From: Syntrophomonadaceae bacterium
Lineage (GTDB): Bacteria > Bacillota > Syntrophomonadia > Syntrophomonadales > Syntrophomonadaceae
NCBI GenBank assembly: GCA_012729715.1
Contig: JAAYCQ010000220.1
Coordinates: 1 to 47,538, forward strand
Length of the DNA: 47,538 nucleotides
Direction: 5' to 3'
Made by a program: the position numbers and the translations under genes. Position 1 is the stretch's first letter; every line of letters begins with the position of its first letter. Shown in pieces: positions 27,145 to 47,538 of the stretch. Below the pieces are notes generated by a model. It was not told the origin of the DNA. It saw nothing but the letters and a program-made list of their open reading frames with translations, and did not search any database.

Positions 27145-27480
27145 ATTTATTCCCCATTGTGGACTAATATTGTCCTTTTTGTTTACTATAGGGTTTATGT
27201 CAGTAGATTGTCAAGGAAAATATTAATATTTTGATCATCATAATTCTCGGTAACCGAAATTTATCGGGACAAGTATAACAATTTATATAGAATTGTCTTC
27301 TATGGAAAACTGGTCTTAATTTGTCGTATTTAAATGAACGTTAAGTTTTTCTATTTCATTACGGGCACATCACTACCTTTTATAACTGAATTTCATACAT
27401 TATATGCAGGATATTTAGTATATAACCAGAATATCTATTATTAGTGCTACTGGTATGATTTGATACGGGAGGTAATTTTT

Positions 27481-28143
27481 ATGAATAAGGAGGAGATTCT
27501 GGATACGTTGGCCCGAGCGGTTGTGGAGATGAATGAAGAGACGGTTGAACAGATGGCACTCCTGGCATTACAGTCTGGGATCGGGGCGGAGGAAGCGATA
27601 GAAAAAGGTCTTTCCCGGGGAATGGAGCAAGTTGGTAAATTATATGATGCTAATCAATATTTTATCCCCGAGGTTGTAGTTTGTGCGGATACCATGTATA
27701 AAGGTTTGGAAATTTTAAGACCTGCCACTACAAAGTTACAGAATTCAAAAGGGCGAATTGTAATTGGAGTGGTAGAAGGTGATACCCATGACATAGGAAA
27801 GAATATCGTTGTTATGATGCTTGAATCAGCTGGTTTCGAAGTCTATGACCTTGGTCGAAATGTTCCTCCCGCAGATTTTATTAAACGGGTACGGGAAGTG
27901 GACGCTGACATTGTGGCTATGTCTTCACTGATGACTACTACCATGAAGGGAATGAAAACTGTCATTGAAGAACTTTATTACCACTATCAAGATCATAAAC
28001 CCCTGGTTATGGTTGGGGGAGCACCAGTATCAAAACCCTTCGCTATTCAGATAGGGGCTGATGGATATGCCTCTAATGCCCCTGGAGCAGTGCGAATAGC
28101 CCAACAATTAATGCAGCAAAGGAGAAAAGACGGATGCGATTAA
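27481..28143 (+). CDS. Corrinoid (B12-binding) protein of methyltransferase system
   Basis: Helical cap plus B12-binding GVVEGDTHDIGKNIVVMMLESAGFEVYDLG (DxHxxG); start MNKEE preceded by gggaggt. Confidence 0.93.
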   Translation: MNKEEILDTLARAVVEMNEETVEQMALLALQSGIGAEEAIEKGLSRGMEQVGKLYDANQYFIPEVVVCADTMYKGLEILRPATTKLQNSKGRIVIGVVEGDTHDIGKNIVVMMLESAGFEVYDLGRNVPPADFIKRVREVDADIVAMSSLMTTTMKGMKTVIEELYYHYQDHKPLVMVGGAPVSKPFAIQIGADGYASNAPGAVRIAQQLMQQRRKDGCD

Positions 28144-29126
28144 TTGATTTCATTTCCAAAAGAGACCGCTATCTCTCTTTTCCCTGGATGGCTACTGCCG
28201 GGTTGCAACTGTCTGGATATACACTATATGATGTATATCTTTCTCCACAACGACAGTTGGAAGTAGCCCAGCGAATGAATCAGGAATTTAATGCTGATTT
28301 CACTTACCCAATGGATGATGGAGCCATTTTTGTTGAGACCCTGGGTCTTCCCCTTTTAAAACCGGACTTTGATTTTCCCAGCGTCCTGGAAAACCCTATT
28401 AAAACCACTAAGGACTTGGAAGAGCTGCAGGTTCCCAATCCTTATTCGGACGGACGTATGCCTCTTAACCTGAAAGCCCTGGAACTCATAGCTACCGGAA
28501 TTAGGAAACCCCTGTCCCTATCTATTCAAGGACCCTTTACTTTGGCAGTGGAACTGGTAGGAGCCACAGACTTTGTGCGAGCTATTATCCGTAACCCGGA
28601 TTTTATAGAAAAGGTACTAGATTTTACTAACCAGGTTGTAGGCGATTACGCTCGCGCTACCGTAAAAGCTGGAACCAAATTTATCTGTATTTCCGAACCT
28701 ACCGCAGTAATCCTTTCTCCAGATCGCTTTGAGAAGATGGTGGCAGTTCGACTACGGGCGCTGTACAACAGTTTAGGACCAGGAGTTTGGAAAGTGCTAC
28801 ATATTTGTGGGGATACCCGATTTCTCTTGCCGCATATGCTTGAATGCGGGGCGGAAGGTCTGAGCCTGGATCAGGTGATGGATCTTTCCTCTATAATAAA
28901 AAAAGTCCCCAAAAATACGGTTATTTTGGGGAACCTTGATCCAATTTATGTCCTACGTGAGCTTTCCCCCGAAGAGGTCCGGGCAAAAACTTTGGAACTA
29001 TTACGTAGTATGAAAGGCTACTCCAACTACATGTTTTCCTTTGGTTGTGACTGCACTCCAGATACCCCCCTAAATAATCTAAGAGCTGCTATGGAGGCAT
29101 CGCGAACCCGGATTGTCGATTTGTAA
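28134..29126 (+). CDS. Uroporphyrinogen decarboxylase/MtaA-family corrinoid methyltransferase
   Basis: LSIQGPFTLAVELVG; zinc-type HIC (HICGDT) and C-terminal FGCDC; overlaps the corrinoid gene. Confidence 0.88.
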   Translation: MRLIDFISKRDRYLSFPWMATAGLQLSGYTLYDVYLSPQRQLEVAQRMNQEFNADFTYPMDDGAIFVETLGLPLLKPDFDFPSVLENPIKTTKDLEELQVPNPYSDGRMPLNLKALELIATGIRKPLSLSIQGPFTLAVELVGATDFVRAIIRNPDFIEKVLDFTNQVVGDYARATVKAGTKFICISEPTAVILSPDRFEKMVAVRLRALYNSLGPGVWKVLHICGDTRFLLPHMLECGAEGLSLDQVMDLSSIIKKVPKNTVILGNLDPIYVLRELSPEEVRAKTLELLRSMKGYSNYMFSFGCDCTPDTPLNNLRAAMEASRTRIVDL

Positions 29127-29159
29127 GAATAGACTATTACCGGAAGGAAGTTCTTATTT

Positions 29160-30254
29160 ATGGCTGCCAGGCTGGTGTTGGAAAATGTTAATAAATATTT
29201 CAATGCTCAAAATCCGGCTGTATCAGACTTTAACCTTGAGGTAGAGGAGTCCGAATTCCTGGTACTGGTAGGACCTTCTGGATGTGGGAAATCCACCATC
29301 TTGCGCATGGTTGCCGGGTTGGAAACGGTATCATTCGGAGAAATTTTCATCGACGATGTGTTAGTAAACGATGTACCTCCGAGCGACCGTGATATCGCTA
29401 TGGTTTTTCAAAATTATGCTCTATATCCTCATATGTCGGTTTACGACAATATGGCTTTTGGTTTAAAAATGCGCCGAACTCCCCGTAGTGAAATAGATGG
29501 GCGGGTCAGAGAGGTTGCCAAAATTCTCAACCTGAACCATCTCCTGAAACGTAAACCCCGGGCACTATCCGGTGGGGAGCGGCAGCGGGTTGCATTGGGA
29601 CGGGCCATGGTTCGCCATCCCCGAATTTTCTTGATGGATGAGCCTCTATCTAATCTGGATGCCCAGTTGCGAACCCAAACGCGAGCAGAGATTTTAAAAC
29701 TACACCACAAACTACAGGCCACCTTCCTTTATGTTACCCATGACCAGGTGGAAGCAATGACCATGGGGACACGGATTGCCGTAATGAAAGAAGGCAAGAT
29801 TCAACAGATTGGCAGCCCCCAGGAAGTATTTGAACGACCAGCAAATATGTTTGTAGCCGGATTTATTGGTAGTCCGTCTATGAATTTTTTACCTGCACGC
29901 CTACGCAGCAGTACCGGAAAACCTGTCCTGTCGGTTCTGGGAAGCGAACTAGAAATTTTGCCTGAACAGGTGCTACCATTAAAGCTTAAGGGAAACGGTG
30001 AGCAAACCTTAATACTTGGTGTGCGGCCAGAATACCTTTACCCGGTTGGAGAGGAGGGGGGTATTAAATGCCGGGTGGACGTAGTTGAAATGATGGGTGC
30101 GGAAATGTACTTGCATATGCAAGTAGGGAAAAACGAGCTAGTAGCCCGGGTTAAGACCGACAGCAGCATAAAACCAGGACAAAAGTTCGCTGTGCAAATG
30201 GATCTTGGTCAAATCCATCTCTTTGACCCACAAAGCGGGCAATCATTGATGTAA
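29160..30254 (+). CDS. ABC transporter ATPase, UgpC/MalK-type
   Basis: GPSGCGKSTILRMVAGLE, LSGGERQRVALGRA, FLMDEPLSNLDA, C-terminal TOBE-like region. Confidence 0.93.
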   Translation: MAARLVLENVNKYFNAQNPAVSDFNLEVEESEFLVLVGPSGCGKSTILRMVAGLETVSFGEIFIDDVLVNDVPPSDRDIAMVFQNYALYPHMSVYDNMAFGLKMRRTPRSEIDGRVREVAKILNLNHLLKRKPRALSGGERQRVALGRAMVRHPRIFLMDEPLSNLDAQLRTQTRAEILKLHHKLQATFLYVTHDQVEAMTMGTRIAVMKEGKIQQIGSPQEVFERPANMFVAGFIGSPSMNFLPARLRSSTGKPVLSVLGSELEILPEQVLPLKLKGNGEQTLILGVRPEYLYPVGEEGGIKCRVDVVEMMGAEMYLHMQVGKNELVARVKTDSSIKPGQKFAVQMDLGQIHLFDPQSGQSLM

Positions 30255-30295
30255 ATGCAATCACTGGATATTTATTACAAAAACAGGAGGTTTTT

Positions 30296-31609
30296 TTGAT
30301 GAAAAAGAAAAAAAGTTTAGTTTTAATAATTACTGTTCTCGTACTAGCAACGTTATGCTTTACAGGGTGTGGGAACAACGATAAACAAACTGACTCTCCG
30401 GAAGCGGGAGCTAAAAAGTTTTCCGGCACCACCCTAAATGTCCTTCTGCCACCCTGGTATGAGTTTTCTCCTGCCATGCTAGACGATTTTACCAAAGAAA
30501 CGGGAATTAAAGTTGACTTACAAATTATGGACTGGGATCCCTGCCTGGATAAAATTGTCACTTCAAATGCCGCCGGAGTTGCCCCGGCTGATGTCACTGT
30601 AATGAATTGGGATTGGGTCGGAAAATTCGGGGCAGCCGGCTGGTGTGAACCGCTTAATAATCATTTTGATGACGACTTTTTTGAGGATATTACTACCCGC
30701 TCACTATTTAAGTATAAAGATCAGTATATTGCAATTCCCATCTATAATGATTTTCGCGTGACCTATATAAATAAAGACTACTTCAAAAAGGCCGGCATCG
30801 AACGGATGCCAACCACCCCGGATGAACTGATGCAGGACGCCATTACCATCAAAGAAAAAGGTGTATGTGAATACCCTCTACTGGTACCTTTTACAGCTAC
30901 CGGAGCTACCACCACCCCCTGGTACTTGTTAACCAAAGCTTACGGGGGAGAGCTATTAAGCGAGACAAATGAACCACTTTTTGCCTCCAAAGATTCTGCC
31001 GGGTATAAAGCCATGGAGTTTCTCATTAAAGGCCTCAAGGATTACCAGGTAATAGATCCCGCTTCTATAGGTTGGAAGGGAACTGATGTGGTAGATAATT
31101 TTAAAGCGGGTCAGGGGGCTATCGATATCGCTGGTTGGGCCGGAAATGTATCTCTTTACACTAATCCCAAGGAGTCAAAAATTGTAGATTCAGTACAAGT
31201 AATTAAAGTTCCTGGACAGAACGGGAAAAGCCGGACCTATGGTTTGCAGGAAGGACTGAGTGTTCCAGCCAAGTCCAAAAATAAAGAAGCAGCTGTCGAG
31301 TTTATTCGCTGGCTGAACACCCCTGAGAATGTGGAAAAACTATTTATAGATAAGGGAATATTCCCCAACCACCATAGTACCATTGTTAAATTAGCTAATG
31401 AAGGTAAACTCCCAGGCGGGCAGACCATGGTAGAAGTACTTCCCACTATCGAATCACTCTTCCCCCAGGGAGTACCGGAGTGGAATATGGAATTTGAAAC
31501 AGAAACCTTTACTACTATGAACCAGATGGCTAAGGGAGCCATGACACTTGACCAGGGAATGAACCACCTGGCTGATACCGTAAAGAAGTTGAACCAGTCC
31601 AAACCTTAA
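30296..31609 (+). CDS. ABC transporter solute-binding lipoprotein (family 1)
   Basis: Lipobox LCFTGCGN; extracellular family-1 SBP fold features; 437 aa. Confidence 0.92.
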   Translation: MMKKKKSLVLIITVLVLATLCFTGCGNNDKQTDSPEAGAKKFSGTTLNVLLPPWYEFSPAMLDDFTKETGIKVDLQIMDWDPCLDKIVTSNAAGVAPADVTVMNWDWVGKFGAAGWCEPLNNHFDDDFFEDITTRSLFKYKDQYIAIPIYNDFRVTYINKDYFKKAGIERMPTTPDELMQDAITIKEKGVCEYPLLVPFTATGATTTPWYLLTKAYGGELLSETNEPLFASKDSAGYKAMEFLIKGLKDYQVIDPASIGWKGTDVVDNFKAGQGAIDIAGWAGNVSLYTNPKESKIVDSVQVIKVPGQNGKSRTYGLQEGLSVPAKSKNKEAAVEFIRWLNTPENVEKLFIDKGIFPNHHSTIVKLANEGKLPGGQTMVEVLPTIESLFPQGVPEWNMEFETETFTTMNQMAKGAMTLDQGMNHLADTVKKLNQSKP

Positions 31610-31668
31610 GGAGGGAAAGGAAGAGGGTGCAAAGTACTACTTTGCACCCCGTTAACCACAGGTGAACT

Positions 31669-32538
31669 ATGAAAATAAACCGTACCCTGCTCCCGTATAT
31701 ATTAATAGCCCCACTATTCATACTGTTGGTTCTGTTAACCTTCTATCCCCTGCTGCTTACCATCTTCAACAGCCTGCAGTCTCTGAATCTGGGCAGACCA
31801 GATGATATCCGTTTCGTAGGATTAGCCAACTACATCGAGCTGATGACTGATCCCGCAGTTTTAAATGCTATGAGAAATTCAGTTCAATATTTTATACTGT
31901 CGGTAAGCATAGAAATATTAGGCGGTATCGTAATCGCCCTAAGCTTACGAAACAAATTCAGAGGCCGAGCTATTATTCTGGGCATCGTTATCCTTCCCTG
32001 GGCTCTCCCCCCTGTGGTTAATAGTATCGTCTGGAAATGGATTTATGACCCCTCATACGGTTTGCTCAACGATGTTCTAATCAAATTGGGAATGATTGAC
32101 CACTTTCATGTTTGGCTGGGGGATCCCCATTTTTCACTTGTGTGGGTGGCTTTGGTTCATATCTGGAAGATGATGCCACTAATATCCATTATTATGCTGG
32201 CCCAATTACAGACTATTCCTGCTGAGCTTTATGAGGCCGCACGGATAGATGGAGCCAACTCACTACAATCCTTTCGACACATTACTTTACCCCTGCTTAA
32301 ACCAGCTTTAATTATAGCTCTGACCCTGGGAACGGTATCCGCATTCCATCTTTTTGACGAGGTTTACGTCCTTACTGGAACCAGTCTGGATACTCGTTCC
32401 ATCATGGTACAAGACTACCTGATTGCTTTTCGTGAACTAAAGTATAGCATGGGAATGGCCTTGTCATTAATCATTACTATAGTTATATTAGCGCTGACCT
32501 GGTTCTACAACCAGTTGGGAAAGGAGGCCAGGGTGTAA
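31669..32538 (+). CDS. ABC transporter permease (CUT1-type, MalF/UgpA-like)
   Basis: LYEAARIDGANSLQSFRHITLPLLKPAL (EAA loop), 6 TM. Confidence 0.92.
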   Translation: MKINRTLLPYILIAPLFILLVLLTFYPLLLTIFNSLQSLNLGRPDDIRFVGLANYIELMTDPAVLNAMRNSVQYFILSVSIEILGGIVIALSLRNKFRGRAIILGIVILPWALPPVVNSIVWKWIYDPSYGLLNDVLIKLGMIDHFHVWLGDPHFSLVWVALVHIWKMMPLISIIMLAQLQTIPAELYEAARIDGANSLQSFRHITLPLLKPALIIALTLGTVSAFHLFDEVYVLTGTSLDTRSIMVQDYLIAFRELKYSMGMALSLIITIVILALTWFYNQLGKEARV

Positions 32539-33374
32539 TGAGAAAATCAATTCCACTGGTCGCGGTTGTAAGTTTGATTGTACTATGGTCATTATTACCT
32601 ATATATTGGTCCCTGCGTACTAGCCTGCTACCAAAAATCGAGTTAACAACTACTCCTCTTAAATATATTCCTATGCCGCTTTCCTTAGAAAACTACCAAA
32701 ACCTCCTGGGAATCGGAACCCGGGGTAACGATGTCTGGATTCCTCTAAAAAATTCCTTAATAAATAGTATCGTAACCAGTACCGGAACTACCCTTTTGGT
32801 ATTACTGCTTTCTGTATTAGCCGGGTATGCCTTTTCCCGGTTTGCTTTCAAAGGTAAGAATCTCTTATTAGGTACAATTTTGGTCACTATTGCCCTACCT
32901 GCTTACTCCGTCATGATTCCCCTATATAGAATTATTATCAGGTTAGGTTTGCTTGACACTTGGGTGGGAATCACCTTGATTTTTACATCAGCTTTTGCTC
33001 CTCTGGGTGTCTGGTTGATGAAAGTAGCATTTGATACCATCCCCATCGAATTAGAAGAAGCAGCGATGGTAGACGGAGCCTCTCCGGCTAAAACGCTTTT
33101 AACCATACTACCATTGGTCGTACCTGGTATGGTAGCAGTAGCCACTCTAACCTTTCTTAGTGCTTGGAGCCAATTTGTCATTCCTTTGGTTTTCTCTCCT
33201 CAAAATGCTAGTCCCATAACGGTGCTAATCACCCAATTTGTTGGTCGTACGTCTATTGATTATGGACTCATGTCAGCAGCAGGAATCATAGCTATCATCC
33301 CTCCGCTACTCGTGGTAATGTTCCTCTCAAAATACTTGGTAGACGGCCTTATGCGCGGTGCAATTAAAAACTAA
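32538..33374 (+). CDS. ABC transporter permease (CUT1-type, MalG/UgpE-like)
   Basis: ELEEAAMVDGASPAKTLLTILPLVVPG (EAA loop); overlaps previous stop. Confidence 0.92.
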   Translation: MRKSIPLVAVVSLIVLWSLLPIYWSLRTSLLPKIELTTTPLKYIPMPLSLENYQNLLGIGTRGNDVWIPLKNSLINSIVTSTGTTLLVLLLSVLAGYAFSRFAFKGKNLLLGTILVTIALPAYSVMIPLYRIIIRLGLLDTWVGITLIFTSAFAPLGVWLMKVAFDTIPIELEEAAMVDGASPAKTLLTILPLVVPGMVAVATLTFLSAWSQFVIPLVFSPQNASPITVLITQFVGRTSIDYGLMSAAGIIAIIPPLLVVMFLSKYLVDGLMRGAIKN

Positions 33375-33600: not shown

Positions 33601-34392
33601 TTATATTGCTACTGGTACAATGGTCTTTAACTTTTTTCCGCCGTAATCAAACGGGATGATTCTGACATCCACATCAAAATACTCTTTAAGATTCTCTTCG
33701 GTAATTATTTTTTCACTTTTTCCGAAAATAGCTTCCTTATTTTTTCCCAACATCAATGTTTTGTCTGATATATGCAGTGCATGATCAGGATAGTGTGTAT
33801 TTATTATGCAACTGATTCCCTCTTGTTTTGCTACTTTCATTAATATATCAAGAATAATCAATTGGTTTTTGAAATCCAAATGTGATTCAGGTTCATCGAG
33901 TATCAATATTTGGGGTTGGGATGTCAGTGCCCGTGCTATAAGAACAAGCTGTAATTCTCCTCCGCTAATCTCGGAGCAGGCTTTATTTTCAAGATGTGAT
34001 ATCCCCACCATCTCAAGTGAATGGCGGGCAAATTCTATGTCCTTCCTGGAAGGCAGAGAAAATAATCCCAGGCGAGGCGCTCTGCCCATCAAAACCATAT
34101 CCAGAACCGTATACGAAAATACCGATCCATTACCCTGGGGGACATATCCGATGCTCTTCCATATGGTTTTCTGTCCTAGTTCATCTATCGACCATCCATC
34201 AATAAAAGTATTTCCCATTGTCCATTTCAGCAATGATGTCGTACACTTTAGCAATGTAGTCTTGCCTACTCCATTGGGACCCAGTATGGTAAGAATTTCT
34301 CCCTTGTCAATATAGAAATTAACTCTTTGGAAAAGCGTCTTGCCTTTGGGATAATTGTATTCCCCATTTTCAACTTCCAGTTTCACTACCAC
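33601..34392 (-). CDS. FecE/BtuD-type ABC ATPase
   Basis: GPNGVGKTTLLKC, ISGGELQLVLIARAL, LILDEPESHLD. Confidence 0.9.
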   Translation of the reverse strand: MVVKLEVENGEYNYPKGKTLFQRVNFYIDKGEILTILGPNGVGKTTLLKCTTSLLKWTMGNTFIDGWSIDELGQKTIWKSIGYVPQGNGSVFSYTVLDMVLMGRAPRLGLFSLPSRKDIEFARHSLEMVGISHLENKACSEISGGELQLVLIARALTSQPQILILDEPESHLDFKNQLIILDILMKVAKQEGISCIINTHYPDHALHISDKTLMLGKNKEAIFGKSEKIITEENLKEYFDVDVRIIPFDYGGKKLKTIVPVAI

Positions 34393-35441
34393 TTCCCCCC
34401 GGTCTTTCTTAATAGATAAGCGAAAAATGGTGCTCCTATTACAGCTGTAAGAATAGATAGCGGAATCTCAGCACTTGTTGCCGAGCGGGCTATGTTATCA
34501 ATAAATAATAAAAGAAAAGCTCCTATGGAAATACAAGCAGGCAACAACTTGCGGTGATCAGGCCCGACCAGCATTCTTCCAATATGCGGAACCACCAGCC
34601 CTACCCATCCTACTATGCCACATAAAGAAACTGCTGTGGCTGTAATTACTGTAGCCGCAATGATAACCAGCCATCTGAGACATTGTACATCTATCCCCAG
34701 CGAGCGTGCTTCTTCTTCATCCAGAGATAAAATGTTTATTCTCCATCTCAATAGGTATAGAATAAATATTCCCCCCAAAATTAAAGGCATCCCGATTATT
34801 AAATCAGTATAGGTAGCTCCCGCCATACTCCCCATTAACCAATATACGATCGTCGGCAGCTTATCATTAGGGTCAGCCAGATATTTGAGCAGTGAAATCA
34901 AAGCCTGGAAAAATGCTCCTGTAATAACTCCTGATAAAACCAGCATGAAAAGAGGTGTTCCCGTCTTAAGGTGACCGATGCTGTAAGTGATAACAACGGC
35001 CACTATTCCAAAAGAAAAGGCCATCAACTGAATTAGTGCCAACTGCCCGGACGCCATAATGGCGAGGGCGGCACCAAAACCTGCCCCCGCTGACACACCT
35101 AGTATATCCGGACTGACCAAAGGATTACCAAATAGCCCCTGAAAAGCAGCCCCGGCAACTGCCAACCCTGCTCCCACCAGCATCACCAAGATTATTCTGG
35201 GCAACCTTATACTTAGTACCACAGATTCCTGAAGAGCAGACCAATCTGGAGTAATAGGAAGAACATGCGTAAACAGGATTTTTAATACCGTTTCCGGGGA
35301 AACCCAGTATCTTCCAAAACAAATTGATAGAAAGAATAATAATAAAGGTAATAGTACCATTAATATTACGTGAATCTTATTGTTGGTTCTTATGTTTTTT
35401 GTTGCTGTTTTGGTCTTTGTCTTGCTTAACAGATCTTGCAT
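34386..35441 (-). CDS. FecCD/BtuC-type permease
   Basis: VSIRLPRIILVMLVGAGLAVAGAAFQGLFGNPLVSPDILGVSAGAGFGAALAI; CGIVGWVGLVVPHIGRMLVGPDHR. Confidence 0.95.
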   Translation of the reverse strand: MQDLLSKTKTKTATKNIRTNNKIHVILMVLLPLLLFFLSICFGRYWVSPETVLKILFTHVLPITPDWSALQESVVLSIRLPRIILVMLVGAGLAVAGAAFQGLFGNPLVSPDILGVSAGAGFGAALAIMASGQLALIQLMAFSFGIVAVVITYSIGHLKTGTPLFMLVLSGVITGAFFQALISLLKYLADPNDKLPTIVYWLMGSMAGATYTDLIIGMPLILGGIFILYLLRWRINILSLDEEEARSLGIDVQCLRWLVIIAATVITATAVSLCGIVGWVGLVVPHIGRMLVGPDHRKLLPACISIGAFLLLFIDNIARSATSAEIPLSILTAVIGAPFFAYLLRKTGGKW

Positions 35442-35499: not shown

Positions 35500-36642
35500 C
35501 TATTGAGCATCTTTGGCACTATCTCTGGTTGGATTCAGAATCATCTGTACTTGCTGGTCGGAGAGATTATAATTATAGAACTTTGTATAATATTGCTTAA
35601 TTTCTTTTTCAATACTATACTCGGAGAACAGCTTAGGCTGGTTCTTCTGTGCCATCCACTTCAGCATGAGCGGCGTATCTCCGCTGGGAGGAAACCATCT
35701 GTAAATACCAAGCGGTATCTTGTAAACCTGCCCTTTTTGCACTGCTGCAACTTTACTCCAGTCCTGACCTTTAATGGTGTTTTTCAAAAGGTCTTCTGCC
35801 AAAGTCGGGGTAAAGTTGGTGATATAGATAATTTCAGGATTCCATTTATATATTTGTTCCATATTTACTTGCCCAAGCATTTTTATATCTTCAGCTACAT
35901 CCTGTGCTCCCGTAGTTCTCAGCCAGTAATTTCCGAAGAAATTGCTGCCTGCTACTTCTATCTTCTTTTCATCCAGTCGGTAGATTATAAGAGCTCTGGG
36001 CTTTTCTTGTTCTGTCAAGTTTGCGGTTTTATTGGTAATTGACTTCTCAACTTCACGACCATAATTTATTATTTCATCTGCTCGAGTCTCCAGCTTCATT
36101 ACTTCGCCTACTAGTTTTACCCATGAATTGAGAATTTCCACCGTATTACCATCCGGTCTTGCCATGGGCTGTACGGCTATGGCAGGTATCCCTGCTGCTT
36201 CCAATAGCTTAAGTTCCTTTTCATTGTTACCACGATAAAATACTACATCGGGCTTGAGCTTCATCAATTCTTCGATATTCAAATCTTCTCCTTTGATAAA
36301 GTCTGATTCAGCCTGCATTATTTCTGGGGCTAATATTTTCAACATGGAATTTTCCGCCGCACTTTTGCATGCAGGATGAACTCCTACCAGTTTAGAACAA
36401 GATCCATTGGCTAAGAAGTATACCGCTGCCAAGGGCAGTATACTGGTAACCACGACTCGCTCAATTTTGGTGGGTATTTTAACCGTTCTCCCGTTCTGAT
36501 CGACGACTGTCTTATATTCTTTCTCCTGTGATACCGCCGGTGTCTTCTTATCACTAACTTGCTTGTTGCACCCTAACACGCCGGTCATAATAAATGCCAG
36601 TACCAGTAAAAGCGCTGTTAACTTCATAAAATGCCTTTTCAT
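35500..36642 (-). CDS. Periplasmic-binding lipoprotein (PF01497-like, siderophore/cobalamin/metal-chelate type)
   Basis: Lipobox GVLGCNK; VVDQNGRTVKIPTKIERVVVT; LKPDVVFYRG. Start set at MKRHFMK with GGGAG RBS. Confidence 0.92.
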   Translation of the reverse strand: MKRHFMKLTALLLVLAFIMTGVLGCNKQVSDKKTPAVSQEKEYKTVVDQNGRTVKIPTKIERVVVTSILPLAAVYFLANGSCSKLVGVHPACKSAAENSMLKILAPEIMQAESDFIKGEDLNIEELMKLKPDVVFYRGNNEKELKLLEAAGIPAIAVQPMARPDGNTVEILNSWVKLVGEVMKLETRADEIINYGREVEKSITNKTANLTEQEKPRALIIYRLDEKKIEVAGSNFFGNYWLRTTGAQDVAEDIKMLGQVNMEQIYKWNPEIIYITNFTPTLAEDLLKNTIKGQDWSKVAAVQKGQVYKIPLGIYRWFPPSGDTPLMLKWMAQKNQPKLFSEYSIEKEIKQYYTKFYNYNLSDQQVQMILNPTRDSAKDAQ

Positions 36643-36644
36643 GG

Positions 36645-37868
36645 CTAAATCTCCCTTCCATGCCAATAATTATATGAGCTTCTTTCATCCATCATTTGTT
36701 CTTCAAAAAATGCTTTGCCTCCCTCCCCGATATAATCGATATCTCTATCCCAGTAAAGACGACTGGAAAGAGCAATATGCGGGAATTCAATATATTTTCC
36801 TCTGTACTCAGGATTAAGTGCAGCCTTATATAGTGGGTCGCCTATAATCATTTCATAATGATTCTCTCCGGTGATAACAGCCAAATCATCTTCCTGTTGT
36901 AGAAAGATGTCTTCTTTCTCTCGCAGAATATTATCCATACTAAGGAAAGATGCTACGTTTACCTGGCTAATACCAAAATCCATACGAAGGCAAGTACGAA
37001 TAGAATTACTCATAACCTGCTCACCTATAATAAGCACCTTATTTATATGGCTTTTATTTTTGTTTGAACTTCGAGTTATGTTGCTTTCCTGCTGAATTCC
37101 ACCCTCATGACGGATGATATCCCTAAAATAGCGACTGGCCTGATCTCCGATAGGAATCCCTGTCACATAAGGAATGTTGTATTTTTCCTGCATGTAACGC
37201 GCAGTTGCCAAACCTGACCAGGATACGATCATATTTAATTTGGCCTTACAAGCAAGTGTTATATCATCTATTTGTGTTCCCACTCCCCAAATTGAAATAT
37301 TGCTATATCCGGCCTTTTTTATCTGATCTATAACTTTCTTGATATTTGCCTGACTTCCCATATCGAGCGGGGTAGCTCCAATAATATTAATCTCAGGAGC
37401 AGCAAGGGATTCAAGCGCAAAGGGGTTTATAAATCTCTGCGCCAGTTCCATAAAAGCAGTTGATTGCCCCACATCATACAGTTTCATTCCATTAGTATCA
37501 AAAGCCAACGTTGGCAGTCCTGTTCTTTTGGAAATTATCCTTGCCAGTGCCCGATAATCCGTACCCATAACCATCGGGGCCGGGCTACCCAGTATGGCAA
37601 TGAATTTGCGCTTCAATGCTACTACAGCATCATTCAGCTTACCCAGCAGTTTCTCCTCATCACCCAGCACCGCTTCATTTTCGCGCAGCCCGGAACTAAA
37701 GACAGCACTTGTACCATCATACCAGCGAGGTTCATCATATCCGGTATAATTGCCGGTACAGCCACCTGCATCATGTATGACAACAATTCCTCCCATTTCA
37801 AACAATACTGCACATACTCCTGAATAATCAGGAGCAAAGGGAGGCAAGTACTTGTATAGTCCGTCCAT
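36645..37868 (-). CDS. Nitrogenase component 1-like protein, NifK-like
   Basis: SGVCAVLFEMGGIVVIHDAGGCTGNYTGYDEP; AILGSPAPMVMGTDY; LNMIVSWSGLATARYMQEKYNIPYV. Confidence 0.85.
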   Translation of the reverse strand: MDGLYKYLPPFAPDYSGVCAVLFEMGGIVVIHDAGGCTGNYTGYDEPRWYDGTSAVFSSGLRENEAVLGDEEKLLGKLNDAVVALKRKFIAILGSPAPMVMGTDYRALARIISKRTGLPTLAFDTNGMKLYDVGQSTAFMELAQRFINPFALESLAAPEINIIGATPLDMGSQANIKKVIDQIKKAGYSNISIWGVGTQIDDITLACKAKLNMIVSWSGLATARYMQEKYNIPYVTGIPIGDQASRYFRDIIRHEGGIQQESNITRSSNKNKSHINKVLIIGEQVMSNSIRTCLRMDFGISQVNVASFLSMDNILREKEDIFLQQEDDLAVITGENHYEMIIGDPLYKAALNPEYRGKYIEFPHIALSSRLYWDRDIDYIGEGGKAFFEEQMMDERSSYNYWHGREI

Positions 37869-37882
37869 TTATATCTACCCCC

Positions 37883-39193
37883 TTATATAACCAAGCCGGA
37901 ATCATATACTTGTTCCCGGTGACTCCTGGGATTATTCACTGCATCAAGCATTTGTCTAAGTAGAGATATTACACCGCGATATCCATAGGGTTGCGAATCC
38001 AGTGTAAGTGGGACGGTCTTTGCACCCGCGCAGAAATATCCGGCTTCCAAGCCGATGGCCAGGTCTACCGTAAGCTTCTCTTCCAGAATATCAACCATCG
38101 TGGGATGTATATTTGTGAATACCCTTATATTCGGCCGGTTAATTTGGAGCCATCTAAGATGCTCCTGGTCAAAATCAAGTAGCTGATCAGCAAAAATATA
38201 AGGCACCGCAAAGCCATACTCACTAAGGGCCCGTGCCAATTCAAAGGGACTGGCGTTTATGCTCTCTCCTACCGCAATGCTTATCTGCCCCAAACGGCGT
38301 TGATAATATCTGATTTCCCCCAGTACTTCCTCCCGAAATCGTTCTGTATCCAGTTTAACTTCCAGAAATTGTTCCAGCCTGCTATAAGCTCCCGTAATAT
38401 TATCCATCCCATATACTACCGGCTCAAAGCAAAAGGGAAGCCCCAGTTTCCTTTCCATATCCTGTGCAGCCAGGCGGCCGGCTGGTTTTAGCAGAATATT
38501 ATGTGTCGAGCATCCCATCGAATATAGCTCTTCCAAACTTGAGCAGGCTGCGATATGTCTGATTTTATTTATCCCAGCTCGGCAGAGTACTTCGTAAAAC
38601 TCGCTGTCCTCCTCAATCGGAGCAAAACACCCAACAATATTTACACCGCTGTCACTGGTAGTCGAATGAGGAATAAAGTCATAAATTGCCTGTTGGACTG
38701 AAAATTCCGGGGCAGTTTTCCTTTCCCTTGTGATAGGATCCATTCGGCACAGCCTGACCGCTATGTCATAATCTTTAGCAATTCTTGTGGAAATCGTATC
38801 GTAGTCCGAGCCTAGCAGATCATCAATACAGGTTGAACATATAATCATTGCTCTGGGTTTGGGTTTTACAGAGTTTAATATTTCCGCTGTAGCCAGAGTG
38901 ATTTTATCCAGATGCTGCCCGGTAACAACATCATTTTCGCTTATTTGTAAAAAGAACAGCCTTTTCTTAAATCCCAAGTGAAAACCCGCTATTGCCCCAT
39001 GACGGCCACATGCTGCAGGCGATACAAAAAGCATTACCGATTCCGGTACCAGTAAAGCAACTCGGATAATGCCCCAACCCCCTGAACCCGGCGAGCAATA
39101 ATGCATATAATTTTGGGGACTCAATTTAGGGCTGCCCTTTAAATCACATTCTCCAACTTCCGTAATAGGCAAAGAAAAAACTTGCCCATTCAT
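37883..39193 (-). CDS. Nitrogenase component 1-like protein, NifD-like
   Basis: [69 protein letters not shown]. Confidence 0.85.
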
Positions 39194-39954
39194 TGCCCGC
39201 CCCCCTCTGCCACCAAGTTCTGTGCAATATCCATAATAATGTGTGAGATCGGCAGTTCGGGGTTCCCTTCAATTACCGTTTGGTTTTGTTCTTCGAATAT
39301 TGCAATATTATTGTCGCGCGGAATGTCGCCTATGATTTTGATTCCGAGTTCTTCGGCAAATGTACCGACTATTTTGCCTTCATCCGGCATATTACGCCTA
39401 TTTAAAATTAAGCCTCGCAAGCTAGCATAATTACGGTCAGCAAAGTTATCAATAGCTGTCTTGATATTACGTGCTGCAAAAAGCGCCATTTTCTCACCCG
39501 AGGTTACTATTATCACTTCGTCCGCGTAACCTTCCCTAATAGGCATAGCAAAGCCTCCGCAAACCACGTCGCCAAGTACATCATAAAAAACAATATCGGG
39601 TTGATATACTTCAAAGGCATGCAGTTCTTCCAGAATGTTAAAAGTAGCTATGATGCCCCGACCTGCACATCCGATTCCCGGAGTAGGACCACCCGCTTCT
39701 ATACACAGGATTCCATTAAATCCTTCTACTACGATATCTTGCAATGATGGATAATAGCCTTTTTCCTTAAGATAATTCATAACCGGCATTACTGCCTCAC
39801 CCCGCGTAAGCTTGAGTGTCGAATCAGCCTTGGGATCACAGCCAATTTGCATAACCTTGAACCCAAGCATAGAGATGGCTGCCGCAAGTGAACTGGTAAT
39901 AGTAGACTTTCCTATACCGCCTTTGCCATAAACTGCAATTTTTTTCATTAGCAA
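39190..39954 (-). CDS. NifH-like ATP-dependent Fe-S reductase
   Basis: [73 protein letters not shown]-loop plus both cluster-ligating Cys. Confidence 0.95.
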
Positions 39955-44002: not shown

Positions 44003-44029
44003 AAACCGGGGGTTTTTAGCCCCCGGTTT
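44003..44029. terminator. Bidirectional terminator hairpin
   Basis: aaaccgggggtttttagcccccggttt; overlaps the stop codon of the minus-strand gene. Confidence 0.85.
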
Positions 44030-45167
44030 GTTTGCTTATATCATGTACGGCTTTGATAACCGTCTCTATTTCTTCTTTGGTGGTGAAGTACCCGGGGCTA
44101 AGCCGGCAGGACCCTCTTTCCAGGGTACCGATGGTCTGGTGGGCCAATGGGGTACAGTGCAATCCGGAGCGGGTTACTATACCATACTGGTAATCCAGCT
44201 GCATGCTGAGTTCTCCGCAATCCACATCATCTATATTAAATGCAATTACTGCTGTCTGTTTTTCACTGTCACTCGGGCCATATATCTTTATCCCCTTAAT
44301 TTCTCGAAGGCCATCCAGCAGCATTTCTGTAATCTCTTGTTTCTGACAGCGTATATTCTCTCTCCCTGTTTGCAAGATAAATTCTACCCCGGCAAGGAGA
44401 CCAACTATTCCCGGTGTATTAGGGGTTCCGGCCTCCAACCGATCCGGCATGAATTCCGGATGCTGCAGGTGTTCGGAAAAAGACCCGGTCCCACCTTCTT
44501 TAAGTGGGGTTATTTCAATTCCGGTCGATACATAAAGTCCGCCGGTACCCTGTAAACCAAGTAATCCCTTATGCCCGGTAAAGGCAAGTAAATCAATATA
44601 TTGAGCTTCTATATCCAGCGGCAGCACTCCTGCCGTTTGAGCACTATCAACCAGAAAAACCAGGCCGTTTTCCCGGCAGATTTTACCCACTTCGGCAATC
44701 GGCATAATCGTCCCGGTAAGATTGGAAGCATGTAACATAGCAACCATACGGGTATTGGGCTTAATAGCCTTGCGAATGTTGTCCGGGTCCAAACTGCCGT
44801 CGGCAGCACAGGCTACCGCGGTCCATTCTACCCCCTGTTGGGAAAGAGTATAAAGGGGCCGAGCTACGGCATTATGCTCCATGCTGGTGCTTATTACATG
44901 GTCACCGGGATGCAGGAACCCTTTCAGGGCTATATTTAGTGACTCAGTTACATTGGCGGTAAAAGCAATTTGTTCACAGTCTTTTATATTAAATAAGCGG
45001 GAGAGTGCTTCCCGGGCATCAAGCAAGATTGATCCCGCCTTTAGGGTTGCATGATGGCTTCCCCGCCCCGGGTTCCCCCCCAGGCAGCGATTAAAGTGGT
45101 CAACCGCAGTATATACACTTTCTGGTTTGGGAAATGATGTTGCGGCATTATCCATGTATATCATCAA
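44016..45167 (-). CDS. Aminotransferase class V / cysteine desulfurase family
   Basis: MDNAATSFPKPESVYTAV, STSMEHNAVARPL, DSAQTAGVLPLDI, FTGHKGLLGLQGTGGLYV (PLP Lys). Confidence 0.93.
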   Translation of the reverse strand: MMIYMDNAATSFPKPESVYTAVDHFNRCLGGNPGRGSHHATLKAGSILLDAREALSRLFNIKDCEQIAFTANVTESLNIALKGFLHPGDHVISTSMEHNAVARPLYTLSQQGVEWTAVACAADGSLDPDNIRKAIKPNTRMVAMLHASNLTGTIMPIAEVGKICRENGLVFLVDSAQTAGVLPLDIEAQYIDLLAFTGHKGLLGLQGTGGLYVSTGIEITPLKEGGTGSFSEHLQHPEFMPDRLEAGTPNTPGIVGLLAGVEFILQTGRENIRCQKQEITEMLLDGLREIKGIKIYGPSDSEKQTAVIAFNIDDVDCGELSMQLDYQYGIVTRSGLHCTPLAHQTIGTLERGSCRLSPGYFTTKEEIETVIKAVHDISKQTGG

Positions 45168-45245
45168 TCAATGTTCCTTCCGCACAAAAGTATTGTTTCG
45201 CTATATTTATGCGCTGGCTAAATAAAATAGTAAACTACCTAATAA

Positions 45246-45827
45246 TTAAAGTGTTAGACTGCGGGCGGTAGTAGTCAAAATTTCCAGGGCGGTGTACATA
45301 TTAGTAACACTGCCAACTGCTAATTTGTCCTTGGACTGATAATAATCCAGGCAAGTACCACAGGAAAGAATCTCTACCCCTTTGTTCTCCAGAACCTTCA
45401 GAGTATCAAGAACGGGAGACCCTTCAATAGTTAAGAAGATGCCACTATTCATGAATATGATATGCTTTACCTGGGCATCAAGTTCAGTTAAAGTAAACAG
45501 GAAACTTTTCATCAGCACCTGACCCAGCTCGGCTTCACCCTGACCAAAAAGATTGCTGCGTATCATTATAGCTATATCCTCACCTTTACTGCCGGCATCT
45601 TCATCATTGCCACCTACCCTGGTCATATGGATGTAGTAGTCATCATCCTCCTGCTTTACTTCAAATTCGTATCCCTGGCTTTTTGCTAACTTGCTAACAT
45701 TCTCCAGGGCCACCGTTTGATTAACAATGGTAGTAAGCTCCTCACCCCCGGGTTCTTCCATTGCTTTTTTAGTCATGATAACCGGCTGGGGACAAGTAAG
45801 TCCTCTGGCATCCACTACTTTACCCAT
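45246..45827 (-). CDS. yedF: Sulfurtransferase-like selenium metabolism protein YedF
   Basis: N-terminal TusA-like VVDARGLTCPQPVIMTKKAM; C-terminal DsrE-like domain with SCGTCLDYY. Confidence 0.93.
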   Translation of the reverse strand: MGKVVDARGLTCPQPVIMTKKAMEEPGGEELTTIVNQTVALENVSKLAKSQGYEFEVKQEDDDYYIHMTRVGGNDEDAGSKGEDIAIMIRSNLFGQGEAELGQVLMKSFLFTLTELDAQVKHIIFMNSGIFLTIEGSPVLDTLKVLENKGVEILSCGTCLDYYQSKDKLAVGSVTNMYTALEILTTTARSLTL

Positions 45828-45854
45828 GAATAAACATCCTTTCTATCGACATCA

Positions 45855-46616
45855 TTAACTATTCTGTCCCAGTAATGCCGCACCCAAAGCCCCGGTAAAC
45901 TGGCATCCCTCCGGTATTAACAACTGACACCCCAGTTCCTCCTGCAGAGCCCGGCGTACACCTGGGTTTTTAGCTACTCCCCCAGTAAAGGCGACCTCAC
46001 CGTCTATACCAATTCTTCTAACCATGGCGGCTACCCTTCTGCCTACGGATTGGTGCAGGCCGGCAATTATCCCGGCTTTGGAGGTCCCCCGGGCCAGTAA
46101 GCCAATAATTTCGGATTCAGCAAATACTGTACACATACTATTAATAGCAACCATATGATTGGGGTCTTCATGTTCCCCCAATTCACTTACGTCCAGGCCC
46201 AGGGCATTGGCCATAACCTGTAAAAAACGACCGGTCCCGGCAGCACATTTATCATTCATGGCAAAATCAATTACCCGACCCTGTTCATTAACCCTTATTA
46301 CTTTACTATCCTGCCCGCCTATATCAACTATAGTCCCTACCTGCGGATATAGCTGGGCCACTGCCCGAGCATGGCACTTAATTTCAGTCGCCACCTGACC
46401 GGCATCAGCAACTGCTATACGGCCATAACCGGTTACAATTATGTCGTCCAGTTGTTCTCGTTCGCGTCCGGACATCTGCAGTAATTGACAAATAAGTGCT
46501 TCACTGGCATCGCGCGGACTCCAACCGGTAGGTATCATGGCCCGATGCATCCTGCCCCGATCCAGCATAACCCCTTTAGCTGCCACCGAACCTATATCTA
46601 AACCAACTACCAACAT
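45855..46616 (-). CDS. Acyl-CoA dehydratase activase / ATP-dependent Fe-S activator (HgdC/DCCR-type)
   Basis: VGLDIGSVAAKGVMLD, VDIGGQDSKVI, NDKCAAGTGRFL, VAFTGGVAKNPGVR. Confidence 0.95.
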   Translation of the reverse strand: MLVVGLDIGSVAAKGVMLDRGRMHRAMIPTGWSPRDASEALICQLLQMSGREREQLDDIIVTGYGRIAVADAGQVATEIKCHARAVAQLYPQVGTIVDIGGQDSKVIRVNEQGRVIDFAMNDKCAAGTGRFLQVMANALGLDVSELGEHEDPNHMVAINSMCTVFAESEIIGLLARGTSKAGIIAGLHQSVGRRVAAMVRRIGIDGEVAFTGGVAKNPGVRRALQEELGCQLLIPEGCQFTGALGAALLGQNS

Positions 46617-47538
46617 TAGCCCACCATCTCCAATAACGCTTCAATACGTATTTTCAGTGTTTCCAGGTCGGAAGAGGAATAATCGCTTTCCAGGTGCAGG
46701 TAGGGAAGCCCTTTATCTCGAACCATGTTGCCCACCGCAAAGGCTTCAACATTGTAAGTATGACAGGCCTGCCAGGTAAGGTCAATAACTGCATCTACCC
46801 GGAACTCTTCCAACATGCGCTCCAATAATTCAAACCGGTAAGGGTTGGGACTCATACAGGAACAAGGTATCTCCATATATTTTTGCGCTAATGCAACTAT
46901 CGGATCATTTAACTCAGTATCACTCTGTAATTCCAGAGTCTTGTAACCGGAGCAATTCTCCATTGCTACAATTAAGCCACCGGCTTCTTCCACCAGGCGA
47001 ATAACCTTCTCGGAACCCAGGCCGACCGGGCAACCGGTGAGCAGTACCCGGGGCTTTTTGGTACCACCCTGCGCCGCCCGGCTGGCAACCAGTTCTTGCT
47101 GTAGTTCCTCAAGCATTGTAACAAGACTTCCCTTATCGCTGCTAAAATTGCGCGACCAGGTAACCGTAAGTAAATCCAGTCCACTTAGTACCGGTGGATC
47201 AATTTTATTTAAATCACAAATAGTTTTAACTGCTATAGTCTCTTGGTTTACCTTCCTAATAGCATCCCACAACTTTTCATCAGTAATTTCTACATCCAGT
47301 TCTTCCTCCAGGGTAGAACGCAAACGCCTCAGTTCCTTTGCCCATAGTTCTAGAGCAGCATCCAACTGATGCAAATGAGGCAACTGCATTACATATACCG
47401 GCTTGATGTCCTGCATAATCTCAAACATCTTTTTCTTGCCATCACAGGTAGTTTCACCAATAACCAAATCAGAAAAATGAAAAAATGGGCAGGTATCGGT
47501 AGCGGCAAAACCGTAAGATGATTTTATTAATGGGCAAA
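46616..47538 (-). CDS. 2-hydroxyacyl-CoA dehydratase subunit D/HgdB family protein (partial; 5' end beyond window)
   Basis: The frame stays open through 47538: CPLIKSSYGFAATDTCPFFHFSDLVIGETTCDGKKKMFE. The listed start at 47467 is an internal TTG. Confidence 0.9.
   Translation of the reverse strand, partial: CPLIKSSYGFAATDTCPFFHFSDLVIGETTCDGKKKMFEIMQDIKPVYVMQLPHLHQLDAALELWAKELRRLRSTLEEELDVEITDEKLWDAIRKVNQETIAVKTICDLNKIDPPVLSGLDLLTVTWSRNFSSDKGSLVTMLEELQQELVASRAAQGGTKKPRVLLTGCPVGLGSEKVIRLVEEAGGLIVAMENCSGYKTLELQSDTELNDPIVALAQKYMEIPCSCMSPNPYRFELLERMLEEFRVDAVIDLTWQACHTYNVEAFAVGNMVRDKGLPYLHLESDYSSSDLETLKIRIEALLEMVG

Follow-up and report, generated by a model that had tools for sequence, protein, structure and literature searches.

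A six-gene operon in the window (the whole stretch of DNA analysed, 47,538 nucleotides from a Syntrophomonadaceae bacterium) combines a nitrogenase-like set of H, D and K genes, called HDK below, with an ABC importer. We give an even chance to the reading that this operon encodes an ATP-driven nitrogenase-like reductase, working with a single bridging [4Fe-4S] cluster, together with the importer of its metal-complex substrate, and that relatives of the reductase were recruited twice to assembly of the H-cluster. The neighbourhood, i.e. the importer operon, is the most informative feature, and it was left unused in an earlier interpretation of the same DNA (the sequence-only reading). The HDK family was noted in 2012 without a function, and the comparative result is the first testable role for it.

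Genes of the operon

All six genes lie on the minus strand in the order H, D, K, substrate-binding protein (SBP), permease and ATPase, with overlapping or near-touching ends; the stop codon of H overlaps the start of D. The nifH-like gene H (39190..39948) encodes an ATP-dependent reductase component of 252 aa, which scores about equally with the CfbC and NifH models of NCBIfam (300.6 bits with a cut-off of 402, and 299.1 bits with a cut-off of 394, respectively). Its characteristic loop and both bridging-cluster Cys motifs were read in the sequence. The NifD/E-like catalytic subunit D (37883..39193, 436 aa; PF00148 2.1e-26) and the NifK/N-like catalytic subunit K (36645..37868, 407 aa; PF00148 7.1e-24) are found exactly where the sequence-only reading had placed a D-like and a K-like open reading frame (36645-39193). 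The top NCBIfam models are NifE, alternative-nitrogenase and DPOR-N for D, all far below cut-off (nifE 49 bits against 505), and NifE, DPOR-B and NifD for K, again below cut-off. D and K are the only PF00148 proteins in the window's genome (G000, 93% complete), and a search with PF00148 found no NifDK, NifEN or DPOR elsewhere in it, i.e. no second pair of the NifEN type as expected for a nitrogenase.

The importer consists of a lipoprotein SBP of the FepB/MolA class (35500..36642), identified by its lipobox VLGC and its PDB relatives, a FecCD/BtuC-type permease (34386..35441; NCBIfam BtuC 250 bits, below the cut-off of 461) and an ATPase (33601..34392), assigned from NCBIfam models and its co-occurrence with HDK. 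With these three components in one operon, NCBIfam models and PDB relatives identify a FecCD-type ABC importer.

Two further gene groups of the window were recorded. On the plus strand at 27460-33374, a corrinoid protein, an MtaA/CmuA-like methyltransferase and a sugar/glycerol-phosphate-type ABC transporter probably serve the uptake and demethylation of a methyl substrate. On the minus strand at 44016-47467, cysteine-desulfurase-like and TusA/YedF-like genes were recognised by eye, together with an activator and a subunit of the 2-hydroxyacyl-CoA-dehydratase type.

Cofactor ligands and cysteines

Conservation was counted in alignments of 121 D and 122 K homologues. At the position of the cofactor ligand Cys275 of NifD the family alignment places D-Leu235 (codon 38489..38491, minus strand), as had been claimed from matching ERKLGLPF with EEKYGIPW, a register that proved right; the column is a Cys in only 3 of the 121 homologues. 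A Pro had been proposed at the His442 position. There is indeed no His, but the Pro came from a slip in register: the window protein has a one-residue deletion instead (PY-GYRG against PYaGYeG in NifE), leaving a gap where His442 would be. No column of D holds a conserved His in the 121 homologues. The absence of FeMo-cofactor ligands, claimed earlier from the two local comparisons, is upheld by the alignment, and both ligand positions differ from those of a nitrogenase (NifDK). In MarD, the cofactor His is contributed by another loop and had escaped sequence analysis (PMC12552129), so that the missing His442 alone is a weak argument against a cofactor. The missing equivalent of Cys275 together with the lack of a conserved His in D makes an M-cluster-like cofactor unlikely.

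The window's D protein carries three Cys at P-cluster positions, namely Cys33 (codon 39095..39097; NifD Cys62 position, in YCSPGSGG), Cys62 (39008..39010; NifD Cys88 position, in AACGRHG) and Cys122 (38828..38830; NifD Cys154 position, the second Cys of CSTC). The K protein carries two, Cys19 (37812..37814; NifK Cys70 position, in SGVC) and Cys37 (37758..37760; NifK Cys95 position, in GGCTGNY), and its third position, within residues 94-105 (GSPAPMVMGTDY, 37554..37589), is without a Cys; Pro98 of this segment is kept in 116 of 122 homologues. All of these codons are on the minus strand. Five of the six P-cluster Cys are thus present, where a nitrogenase (NifDK) has six with three per subunit. 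This asymmetric 3+2 set was correctly described in the sequence-only reading for the window proteins, but does not extend to the family. D-Cys62 and D-Cys122 (121/121) and K-Cys37 (122/122) are invariant, D-Cys33 is a Cys in only 19 of 121 and K-Cys19 in 63 of 122 homologues, and many homologous D/K pairs lack both. Judged from the alignments, 2+1 is the family rule and 3+2 a trait of the window's subgroup. The pattern is far beyond chance, since it is kept across more than 100 diverged sequences. The earlier interpretation is supported in two respects: D is without M-cluster ligands at the NifD positions, and the subunit pair has too few Cys for a P-cluster. DK would instead hold a bridging [4Fe-4S] cluster and an open cavity. 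K also has conserved acidic residues, Asp14 (122/122) as well as Asp45 and Glu46 (both 121/122), which are candidates for the fourth cluster ligand.

Fold

Single-chain AlphaFold2 models of D (pLDDT 92.4) and K (pLDDT 88.0) both have the nitrogenase fold. The top solved match of the K model is BchB of DPOR (9buo_D; VIA-align Z 33.5, rmsd 3.5, 383 aligned residues), with Z of at most 29.0 against Mar, NifN, NifE and NifK chains. The D model is about equally close to AnfK/VnfK, BchB/BchN, MarD and NifN (Z 25-27). By profile, NifE is the top PDB match of D (1.2e-21) and likewise comes out for K among solved proteins. The earlier likening of the enzyme to the DPOR type holds for the K fold and the missing M-cluster ligands; it fails at the family models, which are far below cut-off (bchN 25 against 420 bits, BchB 45 against 490 bits).

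Gene neighbourhoods of relatives

We compared 99 loci, the kept loci being the best 80 of at least 578 relatives, and the proportions of the types are not population estimates. Three types of neighbourhood were distinguished, a split not found in the literature searched. Type A is the arrangement of the window, H-D-K with SBP, permease and ATPase, and its hosts include Syntrophomonas, Tissierella, Christensenella, Treponema, Ruminococcus flavefaciens and Methanospirillum. The arrangement is kept from Syntrophomonadaceae to Treponema, Synergistales and Methanospirillum, and a FecCD-type permease adjoins HDK in about 60 loci. Type B, represented by Coprococcus catus, Blautia luti, Megasphaera, Selenomonas bovis, Mogibacterium and Eubacterium pyruvativorans, combines H-D-K with HypF-HypC-HypD-HypE, usually adds a second H-D-K and in many cases also has HydF, HydE or HydA. 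Type C has an H-D-K of the second kind with the importer, and HydE and/or HydF in most cases. Examples of HypF, HypC, HypD, HypE, HydF and HydE from type B and C clusters exceed the curated cut-offs, as does the TM1266 iron-only-hydrogenase regulator. The latter is present in 20 loci, all but two of which are type B. Importer and Hyp genes were not found together in any locus scanned. HDK relatives were absent from viral contigs.

Natural D-K fusions of 790-870 aa occur in the Hyp-linked unit of four loci (L045, L048, L050, L127). In two others (L037 and L051, genomes G346 and G386) a pair of MoeA-like genes flanks the HDK-importer operon; the D, K and MoeA genes of G386 are fragmented. Both genomes encode HydA-like proteins, with no HydE, HydF or HydG above cut-off. 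A HydE-like match in them was rejected as HydE, as its score is far below cut-off and its neighbours, judged by eye, resemble a pyrrolysine cluster.

Absence of HydG

The CO and CN ligands of the H-cluster are known to come from HydG, yet several bacteria that have HydE, HydF and [FeFe]-hydrogenase are without it. In a sample of 398 genomes of the phylum, HydE was listed in 220 and HydG in 214 (219 and 213 above the curated cut-offs). A close HDK was present in 9 of the 13 genomes with HydE and without HydG, against 8 of the 207 with both (Fisher p=5e-9, with phylogeny ignored). The nine genomes belong to five families, and the four HydG-less genomes without a close HDK are incomplete or fragmented assemblies. 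Almost all of the sampled HydG-less bacteria have the nitrogenase-like genes, and mostly these are found beside HypF-HypC-HypD-HypE or HydE/HydF.

A second set of 50 named genomes consists of 26 of type B, 4 of type C and 20 of type A. HydF was found in all 26 type B genomes and HydG in none of them; for type C the counts are 4/4 and 2/4. Type A is mixed: nine genomes have HydF and HydG, two have HydF without HydG, and nine have neither. Given the 26 out of 26 and the presence of isolate genomes, assembly gaps are unlikely to mimic the absence of HydG. A divergent HydG was also considered and rejected, as the 170-222-bit matches in the nine genomes tested are ThiH (471-526 bits with the ThiH model, against a cut-off of 380). 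No tyrosine-lyase match other than HydE was found in HydG-less G053, G315 and G318. In the six HydG-less genomes checked, the [FeFe]-hydrogenases keep the three H-cluster motifs. Three HydG-less genomes (G296, G071, G380) gave no [NiFe]-hydrogenase match, and their sole HypD is encoded within the HDK cluster; HypF-HypC-HypD-HypE is for this reason not serving a [NiFe]-hydrogenase of the recognised family there. HDK with HypF-HypC-HypD-HypE and/or HydE/HydF in genomes without HydG was recorded at L040, L042, L087 and L120 and at the type B loci L043-L050 and L070-L129.

The link of types B and C to the H-cluster is strong. No published link between nitrogenase-like HDK and the absence of HydG was found in the literature searched, subscription papers being outside its scope. 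In a 2022 survey of acetogens, HydG went undetected in the majority of the genomes, and no settled explanation was offered (PMC9431212). The same paper is the source for a background of roughly 1% hydrogenase activity with HydE and HydF in the absence of HydG.

The window falls outside the HydG-less class. Its HDK adjoins the importer only, and its genome has an ordinary hydG-hydE-hydF operon and [FeFe]-hydrogenases. A general tie of type A to the H-cluster was rejected because HydF is missing from 9 of the 20 type A genomes. Because the window's own genome has HydG and type A is common without HydF, the link is not directly transferable to the window's operon.

Phylogeny of the K subunit

A maximum-likelihood tree of 50 K proteins falls into two halves (split support 100/96), consistent with a tree of 122 rows. 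In the first half, the window's Syntrophomonadaceae clade is joined by Methanospirillum and by every Hyp-linked first unit (100/96), with the window's clade as sister of the Hyp clade at 92/76. The second half comprises the other importer-linked forms together with all second units and type C units (the second HDK being monophyletic, 100/100). As importer-linked forms are found in both halves, the H-cluster-linked forms look like the outcome of two separate recruitments. In HydG-less bacteria, HDK appears to have entered H-cluster assembly once from the window's lineage, with Hyp genes replacing the importer, and once from the other lineage, with HydE/HydF. The archaeal importer-linked operon of Methanospirillum stamsii (L056) groups with the window and the Hyp-linked clades, a placement that suggests transfer of the HDK operon between domains.

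Proposed mechanism and alternatives

The genes present, the conservation of the operon, the pattern of ligands, the fold, the phylogeny and the association with HydG are observed; the type of cluster, the substrate and the reaction are inferred. By analogy with its relatives HDK would be a reductase. The NifH-like dimer would pass low-potential electrons, with hydrolysis of ATP, to a (DK)2 core. There they would enter a single D/K-bridging [4Fe-4S] cluster held by D-Cys62, D-Cys122, K-Cys37 and a fourth ligand, which may be D-Cys33, K-Cys19 or an invariant carboxylate such as K-Asp14, and would be spent on a small substrate at the site of FeMoco in nitrogenase. What is reduced would most likely be a metal complex, probably of iron, that the neighbouring importer brings in and that is released or activated by the reduction. 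The SBPs of types A and C share conserved residues such as E124, E262, W267, P269 and Y314-R315-W316 (79 homologues), which suggests one common cargo. Common to types A and B could be a reduction step on an iron complex, which type A would import and type B would make with HypF-HypC-HypD-HypE.

A wider proposal is more tentative, and we lean somewhat against it. Here the HDK family would be central to a route to the H-cluster that is independent of HydG and so far undescribed. In HydG-less bacteria, an iron-cyanide(-CO) unit would be made by HypF-HypC-HypD-HypE and then remodelled for HydE/HydF by two nitrogenase-like reductases. Importer-linked operons, the window's included, would feed like chemistry from an imported compound, and in type C the importer, the second HDK and HydE/HydF would replace HydG and Hyp. 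If the association is causal, nature has a second means of making the H-cluster, in which elements of [NiFe]- and of [FeFe]-hydrogenase maturation are mixed with a reductase of the nitrogenase type, and it is used by the gut and rumen genera Blautia, Megasphaera, Coprococcus and Selenomonas.

Four other readings were weighed. HDK could be a tetrapyrrole reductase, with the importer bringing in haem or a corrinoid whose ring or metal is reduced, as by DPOR, COR and CfbCD. Tetrapyrroles are indeed the substrates of those characterised nitrogenase-like enzymes that have a simple bridging cluster, K is structurally nearest BchB, and the importer class, which also carries siderophores, B12, haem and molybdate, includes BtuCD and the haem importers. 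The SBP itself has 4ovk_A as its top solved relative (3.8e-65), followed by HI_1472 (5.8e-20); matches to BtuF and IsdE are weak, that to BtuF being at noise level. The nearest characterised class is HI_1472-like and not BtuF. Upstream of 14 type A loci, the window's among them, no cobalamin riboswitch or other Rfam element that could hint at the cargo reached the gathering threshold, and the Hyp-linked and HydE/F-linked relatives have no tetrapyrrole context. We regard this reading as unlikely.

DK as a maturase or scaffold, a NifEN-like site for building or reducing a metal cluster that is then passed on, with the importer supplying the metal, appears quite improbable. It would fit the profile matches of D and K to NifE, the cofactor-assembly genes beside the relatives (HypF-HypC-HypD-HypE, HydE, HydF) and the role in metallocluster assembly suggested by Dos Santos et al. 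(2012; PMC3464626). Against it, the Cys275-type ligand is missing, and type A operons encode no metalloenzyme as recipient.

The close kinship with Hyp-linked HDK from HydG-less genomes, and the [FeFe]-hydrogenases, HydE and HydF of the window's own genome, would suit an operon acting there as a second, HydG-independent source of Fe-CO/CN. This is very unlikely with HydG present, no hyd or hyp gene adjoining the operon and nine of 20 type A genomes lacking HydF. The last reading, a genuine nitrogenase or an enzyme of the Mar/Isr type whose 8-iron active-site cofactor sits on unrecognised ligands, has a precedent in the displaced His of MarD; it can hardly be credited with no conserved His in D, an unconserved Cys275 column, five of six P-cluster Cys (three invariant in the family) and no second PF00148 pair in the genome. 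The reductase with its imported metal complex is the reading that we retain.

Comparison with known systems

The importer shares its lipoprotein SBP, FecCD permease and ATPase with FecCD-type systems such as BtuCD-F and HI_1470-1472 (MolBCA), from which it differs by an SBP of the subgroup whose closest solved member is 4ovk. The DPOR system (BchL/BchNB) resembles HDK in its NifH-like donor, in a D/K-like core without M-cluster ligands and in the K fold, nearest BchB. The cluster ligand of DPOR from BchB is an Asp; in the window's HDK a Cys of K, invariant in the family, replaces it, K is shorter, there are no pigment genes, and the operon includes an importer. CfbCD of F430 biosynthesis is the system with which H scores best, and it has Cys at the alpha-C88 and alpha-C154 positions. 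However, CfbD is a single subunit forming a homodimer, whereas the window encodes two distinct subunits and no F430 genes; H stays below the CfbC cut-off, and methan_mark_13 gives 26.5 against 268. MarHDK and IsrHDK, the C-S cleaving enzymes, are likewise group IV nitrogenase-like HDK operons. Mar has six P-cluster Cys, the ligand Cys270, an [Fe8S9C] cofactor and a radical-SAM gene (PMC12552129), a set that the window's operon lacks.

The closest match is with the NifEN-like 2+1 clades of Dos Santos et al. (2012; PMC3464626), among them Mlab_1040/1039, Dhaf_1539/1540, Coprococcus catus and Dorea longicatena. That paper already describes the 2+1 Cys pattern, notes that the FeMoco ligands are lost and that the fourth ligand may be other than Cys, and reports neighbours that are ABC transporters or hydrogenase maturation genes. 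The window's family agrees, with invariant alpha-C88, alpha-C154 and beta-C95 positions, no FeMoco ligands and adjacent ABC transporter genes, and Coprococcus catus is one of our Hyp-linked type B loci (L070). In its structural part, then, the finding is a further member of a known HDK kind lacking a characterised function. The window's member has two Cys in addition to the 2+1 rule, D-Cys33 and K-Cys19. Beyond the available part of the 2012 description, the present comparison adds the absence of HydG, the interleaving with HydE and HydF, HypC, TM1266 and the alternation of importer and Hyp genes.
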